DNA of 64,000 bases from Desulfovibrionales bacterium (GTDB taxonomy: Bacteria > Desulfobacterota > QYQD01): NCBI GenBank assembly GCA_028715605.1, contig JAQURM010000010.1, positions 1 through 64,000 of the forward strand. Reading direction: 5' to 3'. Numbering within the stretch: position 1 is the stretch's first letter; each line of letters starts with the position of its first letter. Of the stretch, positions 6,420 to 45,646 are shown piece after piece. A program made the position numbers and the translations under genes. The notes under the pieces are model-generated. The model did no database searches and was not told where the DNA came from. It saw only the letters and a program-made list of their open reading frames with translations.

Positions 6420-6566
6420 AATTTAATTACCGTTTGCGGCTGATGGCTGAAGCCAAGACCTCGCTTACCGAAGTCGTAGGGTGGGCTTTGCCCACCATCA
6501 TTGGCGGCGCAGCGTGGGTTTGGTGGGCGGAGCCCACCCTACATGGCTTTCTACTACAGAAAACAT
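6402..6566. repeat. 18-bp direct repeats flanking a GTAGGGTGGGC hairpin element
   Basis: The 18 bases at 6402-6419 recur exactly at 6549-6566. The first copy contains the ATG of cbiR, and the second also begins with ATG on the minus strand, followed by the same five codons. Between them sits an element with two 22-bp arms, 6476-6497 and 6521-6542, inverted with respect to each other (two mismatches). Each arm is itself nearly palindromic (GTAGGGTGGGC..GCCCACC). This looks like a small hairpin element inserted at the start of cbiR with duplication of its target. Confidence 0.7.
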
Positions 6567-43441: not shown

Positions 43442-43560
43442 CCCAGTAGAGTGGGCTTTGCCCCCCCATTGTTCCCGTCTTGGCTCATGGGATTGAGTAC
43501 CATGCCGACCAGAATATCGCGGGCGGTGTCAATACGGCGTTTGATGTCGGTGTCGAGCAT
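43438..43560 (-). pseudogene. 5' stub of a type I restriction-modification DNA methylase (HsdM)
   Basis: On the minus strand an ATG at 43560 begins MLDTDIKRRIDTARDILVG, the conserved N-terminus of HsdM-type N6-adenine methylases. About 27 codons are recognisable, then the frame enters a degenerate GTAGAGTGGGCTTTGCCC repeat (about 43446-43466) and stops after 40 codons inside the PfkB gene. The start lies two bases after the four-helix-bundle gene, the normal order in such loci. The rest of the methylase, and any hsdS/hsdR, are missing here. Confidence 0.7.
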
Positions 43561-43562
43561 GG

Positions 43563-44240
43563 TTATTCCTCAATATTGGTAGACGGGGTGGACTTGGTGG
43601 ACCGGGTGGACGGAGGGCGTGATGACCGTTTTTTGGAACGTACGCGGTAGAGGCGCTCGGTGAAGCCGCCCTCTGTTTCGAACGCCTTAGCCTGTGCGGC
43701 GAGCTGGCGGTCGAGCAGGCTGCAGGCGACCGCCAGCAGCACCAGTGCGGCGTTGGCGGCAAGCTCGGGGTAAGTGGGCACCGTGGATTTCGTAGACTGA
43801 CGCTTTTGTCCACTTAGTCTGTCTCGTCCACGCAGTCCACAATCATGCTCTGCCTGCACCCACTGTACTACTTCATCGGCGGTGGCGCAGCGGAGGTCGA
43901 TCAGTCTTTGCCTGCGGTGGTCGTCACGATCCCAAATCGGCAGGCCGCGCTGGCGCAGAAAATCCTCATAGTCGAGCCGCAGCTCTTCCAGACTGGCCCG
44001 CGCTACATTAGTGAGTTTAATTTCGGTCTTTTTCGAGGTTCCCGATGCTTGACTTCCTTCGGCAATGTTCTGCACCCCCGACCGCGCCGCCTGCACCATC
44101 TGGTCGTGAGTGCGGCTGCGCTTTTCGACATAGCGGTCGCAAAAACGGACCGTTATGTCATAAATCAGTTGCGCCACCTGAAAACTCCTGAGTTTTCGGT
44201 AGCCACCATGCTTCGGTATCAGCGGCTCATTAGTATTCAT
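43563..44240 (-). CDS. Four-helix-bundle protein (23S rRNA IVP-like) with suffix domain
   Basis: A 225-residue protein. Residues 20-110 form the S23/IVP-like four-helix bundle: QLIYDITVRFCDRYVEKR, HDQMVQAARSGVQNIAEGSQASG, and SLEELRLDYEDFLRQRGLP. A suffix region of helices (ELAANAALVLLAVACSLLDRQLAAQAKAF) follows, with Ser/Thr/Lys/Pro-rich linkers on both sides (QSTKST; STRSTKSTPST). In many genomes this longer type sits just before a DNA methylase gene, as here with the HsdM stub two bases downstream. The role is unknown. The linkers are encoded by GTGGAC-type hexamer runs at about 43575-43611 and 43797-43840. Confidence 0.8.
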   Translation of the reverse strand: MNTNEPLIPKHGGYRKLRSFQVAQLIYDITVRFCDRYVEKRSRTHDQMVQAARSGVQNIAEGSQASGTSKKTEIKLTNVARASLEELRLDYEDFLRQRGLPIWDRDDHRRQRLIDLRCATADEVVQWVQAEHDCGLRGRDRLSGQKRQSTKSTVPTYPELAANAALVLLAVACSLLDRQLAAQAKAFETEGGFTERLYRVRSKKRSSRPPSTRSTKSTPSTNIEE

Positions 44241-44317
44241 ATCGTACGTAAGTTCCGGCTTAGAGACCAGTCCGATGGCCCTGTTTTTTTCGATTCACAA
44301 CATGTTGTTAGCGGTCT

Positions 44318-44351
44318 TGGTGGGCAAAGCCTACCCTACATGGCTACTTGG
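44318..44351. repeat. 34-bp inverted repeat, left copy
   Basis: The reverse complement of these 34 bases matches 45389-45422 with two mismatches. It contains the GTAGGGTAGGCTTTGCCCACC hairpin motif also seen at 6476-6497. Together the two copies bracket the single gene at 44363-45250. Confidence 0.8.
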
Positions 44352-44362
44352 AAAAGGAGAAT

Positions 44363-45250
44363 CTATAAAAGTGCTGGTATCTGTAAAACGAGACGTTCCA
44401 CTGTTGCGAGATACTCTGAGTGATGACGTTCGAATAAATGGGTCAATTGGTCCTTCGCATACTTCCCACCCACATAAAGGATTTTGTCCAGGAAAAATGG
44501 CTCCATTCCGATTTCTCTTGCCACAAGCCATGTAAGTATGAACTGCTCTTTTGGTTCTTTGAGTTTCTTGCAGGAGGAAGCTAACTGTTTCAAGAAGTTG
44601 CCAAGATGAACATCGGTTTTGACATAGTACAATAGGCCGAGTTCTTTGAAGAAATTGCATATAAGCGGGGGACCCATCTGAATAATGCCTGAAGAAAACT
44701 CTTTTGCATAGTCAAATGCTTTTCCCGGATGCTGTCGAGAAACCTTGTCGTACATATCCCAAAAGCTTTCAGGGTCTGCCAAAATTTCTTGTTTGACTTT
44801 GGGTAATGCTGTAGCGAGAGATAATACAAGTCTTGGCCTGTGCTTCTTAGTGCTTACTCTACCCTTTAGTATCTCGATTAAACTATTCAAGTTATCTTGT
44901 TCGGGAATTCCAGCTTCTTCTAAAATAGAATTGCCCCAAGACAGGGTGATTCTGACCCAATCATCATATTGATATAATGGTTCGGTACACTTTCTGAAGT
45001 GGCATGACGAATAGTGCCCATCAAATCTGAAGATATCTTCTGGATAAAGGACTTTAAAAGTTTTTCGTACAGCGCTGTAGCTGGCTGCAGCCATTGCCAG
45101 ATTATTCAAAATCTGGTGCTCTTTTGTTTGTTTTGGCCACCTTCGGGTTCGTATTATTTCATACTGCCGGAGCAGATCGGGGTCCTTATTCTTCTGAGTT
45201 TCCTCTGCAATTATTTTTTCTGCTTCAGAGAACAATTCTGAAATTCGCAT
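44363..45250 (-). CDS. Orphan protein with HhH-GPD DNA-glycosylase-like segment
   Basis: A 295-residue protein of no firmly recognised family. Near residues 192-220 it reads QMGPPLICNFFKELGLLY followed by YVKTDVHLGNFL. This resembles the helix-hairpin-helix plus conserved Asp (D-V-H) of OGG1-like HhH-GPD glycosylases. The preceding region (KAFDYAKEFSSGI) could be the helix before it, but no catalytic lysine was placed with confidence. It has several cysteines and no membrane segment. It stands alone between 34-bp inverted repeats (44318-44351 and 45389-45422), next to a decayed restriction-modification locus. It may be a cargo gene, possibly defence- or repair-related; function is inference only. 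Confidence 0.6.
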   Translation of the reverse strand: MRISELFSEAEKIIAEETQKNKDPDLLRQYEIIRTRRWPKQTKEHQILNNLAMAAASYSAVRKTFKVLYPEDIFRFDGHYSSCHFRKCTEPLYQYDDWVRITLSWGNSILEEAGIPEQDNLNSLIEILKGRVSTKKHRPRLVLSLATALPKVKQEILADPESFWDMYDKVSRQHPGKAFDYAKEFSSGIIQMGPPLICNFFKELGLLYYVKTDVHLGNFLKQLASSCKKLKEPKEQFILTWLVAREIGMEPFFLDKILYVGGKYAKDQLTHLFERHHSEYLATVERLVLQIPALL

Positions 45251-45388
45251 TAGCGTTTCCTTTTTTACCGTACTTTGTTAATCCTATCTGCTTCTGCAAG
45301 AGGGGTAACAAGTTATTCCACGGTTTCTGTATATTTCCGCGAGTTGGAAGGAACCCCTCCGGGGTTTCCACACGGCAAGAAGCTTTAG

Positions 45389-45422
45389 CCAAGTAGCCAA
45401 GTAGGGTGGGCTTTGCCCACCA
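45389..45422. repeat. 34-bp inverted repeat, right copy
   Basis: Partner of 44318-44351 (32 of 34 bases agree after reverse complement). The preceding bases AGCC..AAGTAGCC are partly repeated next to it. The right half is the GTAGGGTGGGCTTTGCCCACC hairpin motif, shared exactly with 6476-6496. Confidence 0.8.
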
Positions 45423-45494
45423 TCATCCAATATTCACCGGAAATTTCGCTGGTGTTACATCCCAGTATCGCCGAAATCACTCAGCATTTAGCGC

Positions 45495-45537
45495 AACATA
45501 TTTATTCCATTTAAAATATCCTTGACAAGCTTTTTCT
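45495..45537. repeat. Direct repeat A, copy 1
   Basis: AACATATTTATT..CATTTAAAATATCC then TTGACAAGCTTTTTCT. It recurs at 45923-45967 with only a two-base indel and one or two changes. The TTGACA in it could serve as a -35 element. The two copies bracket the antitoxin-like gene. Confidence 0.75.
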
Positions 45538-45646
45538 AAGATGAATTCAAATGGTAGGTGCGCCACTTGATGTCTGCCGGAACACTTCGTGTGGGGACTG
45601 GCGGGAGAGAAGACCACAGTTACCCGATTATATGTCAGAGCAATTA

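Follow-up and report, generated by a model that had tools for sequence, protein, structure and literature searches.

Two decayed REP-RAYT cassettes very probably account for a transposon-like bracket around a putative Ogg-like HhH gene

Introduction

Does a gene that lies between two long inverted repeats move together with them? This question is raised by positions 44318-45422 of the window, the whole stretch of 64,000 nucleotides analysed here, where two arms of 34 nt each (44318-44351 and 45389-45422) face each other in inverted orientation at a spacing of 1037 nt, with 32 of the 34 positions paired (94% complementary). The initial annotation described these ends as enclosing a single gene of about 0.9 kb, in agreement with the reading frame found here, and interpreted the arrangement as a potential non-autonomous mobile unit. 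The features on which the question turns are the following:

44363..45250, minus strand: orphan gene, intact ORF of 295 aa, assigned by homology to a putative undescribed Ogg-like HhH family; no Pfam, NCBIfam or PADLOC assignment
44318..44351, minus strand: left arm, REP with the GTAG head at 44336-44339 and the tail leftward; it closes, on the right-hand side, a decayed RAYT cassette that starts at 43446
45389..45422, plus strand: right arm, REP with the GTAG head at 45401 and the tail rightward; terminus of another RAYT cassette, likewise decayed
6476..6542, no strand assigned: REP doublet (BIME-like) near cbiR with the heads outward, the common genomic form of the repeat

Results and Discussion

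The bracketing repeats are GTAG-class REPs

Both arms are REPs that consist of a GTAG head and the hairpin GGTGGGC-nnn-GCCCACC. They share a motif with the element at cbiR, as had been noticed in the initial annotation, since GTAGGGTGGGC recurs at 6476/6532. Shuffles of the window gave an expectation of 0 for the complete hairpin pattern, indicating that the arms exceed chance, and the reversed pattern, which served as control, yielded no match across five genomes. The source genome contains 46 exact copies and approximately 59 copies with up to 2 mismatches, as counted after removal of palindrome double counts, and the four congeners harbor 7-21 copies per genome.

The repeat thus displays the hallmarks of the GTAG class, namely the GTAG head, a GC-rich and imperfectly palindromic stretch that encloses a short loop, dispersal at high copy number including 16 inverted (tail-to-tail) doublets, and RAYT genes with this REP on both sides (Y1_Tnp genes on contigs C8, C9 (two), and C18). 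Likewise, the GTAG REP/BIME/REPtron systems described before (PMC2817692, PMC3733652) comprise a GTAG head, a GC-rich hairpin with a 3-base loop, dozens of intergenic copies, inverted doublets, and REP-flanked RAYT genes. Moreover, published REPs of H. influenzae and H. parasuis are near-identical to the one found here (GTAGGGTGGGCTTtAGCCCACC; GTAGGGTGGGTCTTGACCCACC). The set of repeats and transposases in this genome is the REP/RAYT system of these reports.

The arms do not delimit a mobile unit

The orientation of the two arms is opposite to that of every RAYT cassette and close REP doublet in this genome: the GTAG heads are outermost in four of four RAYT cassettes and in 16 of 16 close pairs, whereas they are innermost in the 44318/45422 pair. 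In a REPtron the GTAG heads lie outside and the RAYT gene inside; here, the heads point inward and the enclosed gene does not encode a Y1 transposase. In addition, the genome has facing REP pairs 0.4-2 kb apart at other loci, next to unrelated genes, exemplified by a 1,089-bp pair on C1 and a 1,534-bp pair on C9, both of which, by eye, enclose MNT/HEPN-like pairs. The initial annotation had named two observations that would speak against mobility. Repeats equally common beside unrelated genes are indeed what we observed; conservation of the gene in place is not, as the gene is accessory and missing from four congeners. The MNT/HEPN-like toxin-antitoxin pairs seen by eye between facing REPs are at L043 14751-15543 and L041 1018-1672.

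No target duplication was detected outside 44318 and 45422, the longest common word at the outer junctions being 3 bp. Under the Y1 mechanism a target duplication is not expected, and IS200/IS605-type elements make none. The orphan gene is present in a single copy in the source genome, and neither several copies nor an empty site set by the element ends, as a cargo transposon should leave, were found; instead, the arms or their counterparts persist in gene-free relatives. A comparison of homologues with and without flanking repeats, which had been suggested in the initial annotation, gave a uniform result: GTAG hairpins were absent around the homologues in all 22 locus sequences (approximately 20 distinct places), while a positive control was detected. 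Although MITEs with cargo and IS elements with terminal inverted repeats likewise carry a gene between inverted repeats, this locus differs from them by the lack of a target duplication, by a repeat orientation that is wrong for the family, and by repeats that are dispersed independently of the gene.

Both arms, or their counterparts, occur in gene-free sister species

The orphan gene was absent from all four congeners searched (G001-G004). At this locus their DNA is approximately 90-95% identical outside a variable pocket (in G003, the left side alone is joined on one contig), which has a PfkB-type kinase gene on one side and a YkgJ-like gene on the other. Within and next to this pocket the window contains:

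43446..43466, plus strand: degenerate REP with 2 mismatches that forms the left end of the first RAYT cassette; G001 has the same junction
43563..44240, minus strand: gene for a four-helix-bundle 'suffix' protein (23S rRNA IVP-like; TIGR04258, E 4.9e-20; PF05635, E 2.4e-8)
45423..45470, minus strand: RAYT C-terminal remnant, YWDVTPAKFPVNIG-stop versus DWGVTPTEFPVDIGGE-stop in G002
45303..45539, minus strand: genus-specific intergenic repeat of ~190 bp upstream of the orphan gene, in pieces 45303-45391 and 45488-45539 interrupted by the REP/RAYT remnant

The site in G001 consists of a REP, a truncated RAYT gene, and a second REP without the orphan gene; its left junction coincides with position 43446 of the window, and its right end is orthologous to 44293-44345 (90.6%, E 4e-15). 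Since this arrangement matches the junctions in the window, the left arm is what a decayed RAYT cassette has left at its right end. The gene-free site in G002 has a REP with a RAYT 3' fragment behind it and represents the counterpart of the right arm. Correspondingly, the window contains directly after the right arm a 38-bp match to the RAYT 3' end of G002 (33/38, score 51 versus a shuffle maximum of 23). Thus, the sites in G001 and G002 reveal that each arm, or a counterpart of it, exists where the gene is missing.

Between 43446 and 44339 the REP pair is in proper cassette orientation, and the suffix-protein gene lies where G001 has the RAYT gene. The ~190-bp intergenic repeat contains promoter-like motifs (TTGTCAAGGATATTTTAAATAGAATAT) and occurs in several copies per congener ahead of unrelated small genes; it may act as a mobile promoter or leader. 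An Rfam search of the site gave no credible match, and the impression, gained by eye, of a group II intron fragment near 45570-45625 was not confirmed.

Two adjacent decayed cassettes best explain the bracket

The bracket is very probably a coincidence of two adjacent decayed REP-RAYT cassettes (REPtrons), with a horizontally acquired accessory gene between them that most likely encodes an Ogg-like HhH enzyme or a derivative thereof. A first cassette would have occupied 43446-44339 and then decayed, leaving its right-hand REP as the left arm. A second REPtron may have entered the intergenic repeat around 45391-45488 and would have decayed to one REP, the right arm, and the last RAYT codons. 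The accessory gene would have been acquired horizontally in the hypervariable pocket between both cassettes; the order of these events and the route of acquisition are our inference. The REPs themselves are presumed to have spread as described in the literature, through the action of RAYT, a Y1/HuH transposase, on hairpins that carry the GTAG tag in single-stranded DNA.

A detail of the arms counts against the two-cassette model. Six bases, CCAAGT, are common to both arms outside the conserved REP core and absent beside the other REPs compared. The model does not explain these bases, which hint at some local relation of the arms by duplication or recombination. A tandem CCAAGTAG is located at the right arm beside the shared CCAAGT.

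These six additional matching bases, the inverted arrangement of the two REPs, the active-looking RAYT genes in the genome, and the lack of the gene in the congeners could also be reconciled with a non-autonomous transposon, in which a RAYT acting in trans on both REPs moves the gene as cargo. Nevertheless, we consider this reading very improbable: the orientation is opposite to that of every RAYT cassette and REP doublet, sister species have the arms or their counterparts without the gene, the homologues lack REPs, and the single copy is not accompanied by a target duplication (a signature that IS200/IS605-type elements do not leave either). The assemblies sampled comprised one genome per species, so that mobility within a species is conceivable. 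Somewhat less remote, though still unlikely, is that the REPs were causal without being transposon ends, the gene having entered by REP-REP recombination at these homology islands or within a larger island that was later eroded. In line with this idea, the divergence between the source genome (G000) and G001 begins beside the left REP, the source genome has many REPs in its accessory pockets, and the GC content of the gene is unlike that of its neighbourhood. However, the right boundary, near 45589, lies ~170 bp past the right REP, and no donor locus came to light. We favour the two decayed cassettes, a reading which implies that a convincing transposon-like bracket can come from two adjacent REP elements, and that the orientation of the GTAG heads together with gene-free relatives offers a simple check for such brackets.

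The orphan gene may encode an Ogg-like HhH protein without the Schiff-base lysine

The initial designation of the gene as HhH-GPD-like stands in part: profile similarity to Ogg is found at the family level and the Asp is retained, whereas the Schiff-base Lys is missing. When the family profile was compared with solved structures, the best matches were Ogg-type N-glycosylase/DNA lyases (OGG2, AGOG; E 0.006 to 0.23), and five of the six matches were Ogg/AGOG enzymes. In a genome scan the same profile recovered a true Ogg protein in G025, confirmed as Ogg. Alignment of the 7-member family profile with the Ogg profile by hhalign gave a probability of 80% (E 1.3e-5) spanning the HhH and Asp region, as compared with 12% for the window protein and its single orthologue alone.

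With respect to the HhH-GPD signature, K211-x-D213-x-H215 and the hairpin align to Ogg. These three residues are kept in the ten nearest members; in more distant members Lys can be replaced by Arg, and several of them have Glu for Asp. Like Ogg-type HhH-GPD glycosylases (OGG2, AGOG; PF22175), the protein contains a predicted HhH region, a conserved Gly, a catalytic-type Asp followed by His (K-x-D-x-H), and a C-terminal D..hydrophobic..W/Y motif. Unlike these enzymes, it has P/A/T or similar residues in place of the hairpin Lys of OGG (YKEGSHF) and thus lacks the hallmark of a bifunctional OGG; moreover, its N-terminal half is unrelated in sequence and its score falls under the Pfam cut-off. 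The catalytic residues of OGG are Lys and Asp, and Asp268 of hOGG1 was reported to be responsible for monofunctional base removal (PMC3397491). The missing hairpin Lys and the retained Asp, viewed together with this role of Asp268, favour a glycosylase of the monofunctional type or else a derivative that binds DNA.

Judged from these sequence comparisons, the most likely product of the gene is a base-excision enzyme of the Ogg-like HhH type, monofunctional, or a DNA-binding protein derived from such an enzyme, and its assignment to an undescribed Ogg-like family that has kept the catalytic Asp and lost the Schiff-base Lys is partly supported; glycosylase activity would follow from this assignment. 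That the protein is not DNA glycosylase-like and the HhH similarity is due to chance appears improbable. This notion would agree with the missing Pfam/NCBIfam assignment, the hhalign value of 12%, and the unusable AlphaFold2 models (from one and two sequences, pLDDT 39-40), yet it is opposed by the predominance of Ogg/AGOG enzymes among the solved structures, by independent matches to Ogg-HhH, and by the result with the 7-member profile.

Distribution and neighbourhood of the orphan gene

At 41.2%, the GC content of the gene is lower than that of the window (52.2%) and of the kinase gene (60.4%), in keeping with horizontal acquisition. The protein has its nearest relative, with 42% identity, in a deltaproteobacterial MAG. 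Among 395 genomes sampled from the phylum, 7 contained the wider family, although a genuine Ogg accounts for one of these; in the class sample the family was present in 11 of 389 genomes. Searches of plasmids, phages, and viral contigs with the window protein revealed no homologue; with family members, viral scans gave no match, and a distant member was found on a Pseudomonas plasmid. None of the curated families (Pfam, NCBIfam, PADLOC-DB) covers the protein, and such a family without a curated model may include base-excision or DNA-binding proteins of a new kind, which could matter more than the bracket. G039 harbors an Ogg-like family gene in three copies (C45, C57, C97), each ~2 kb from a second diverged member; this arrangement is a repeated two-paralogue cassette.

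As for a defence context, the PADLOC-DB models assigned the orphan protein to no family and hence to no known anti-phage system. The restriction-modification remnant noted initially was not found among the neighbours scanned, which encode RhuM/Fic-type, four-helix-bundle, and GxxExxY/PDDEXK_3 proteins. The RhuM/Fic-type gene at 46035-47057 matches the candidate defence model PDC-S23 (E 5e-136); G002 has it, whereas the stretches aligned from G001 and G004 lack it.

RAYT cassettes are present in several copies

The source genome encodes a Y1/HuH transposase family, four members of which lie inside pairs of the same REP 617-618 bp apart:

C8:16661-17298: REP-RAYT-REP cassette
C9:44910-45548: REP-RAYT-REP cassette
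C9:96285-96923: REP-RAYT-REP cassette
C18:27653-28290: REP-RAYT-REP cassette

Two of the four proteins are identical (one of these copies lies near a contig end, an assembly caveat), and the third and fourth show 94% and 81% identity. The cassettes end sharply at AGCCNNGTAG...CTACNNGGCT, and their flanks are unrelated. RAYTs have been described as single copy and not self-mobilising (PMC3116915; PMC6006769), in contrast to the four cassettes of one family in a single genome, two of them with identical proteins, observed here (compare PMC3116915). These results suggest that the cassettes transpose, against the published single-copy picture. With slightly less than even confidence, we propose for the genus that the whole REP-RAYT-REP cassette, unlike the domesticated RAYTs described so far, is still transposing and that its insertions mark pockets of accessory genes, one of which would hold a member of the undescribed lysine-less Ogg-like HhH family. 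Multicopy cassettes would permit a direct study of RAYT transposition, which could matter more than the bracket itself. When two cassettes were compared with the congeners, the right flank of the cassette at C9 96285 matched G004 and G002 exactly from the cassette end, and the left flank was rearranged.
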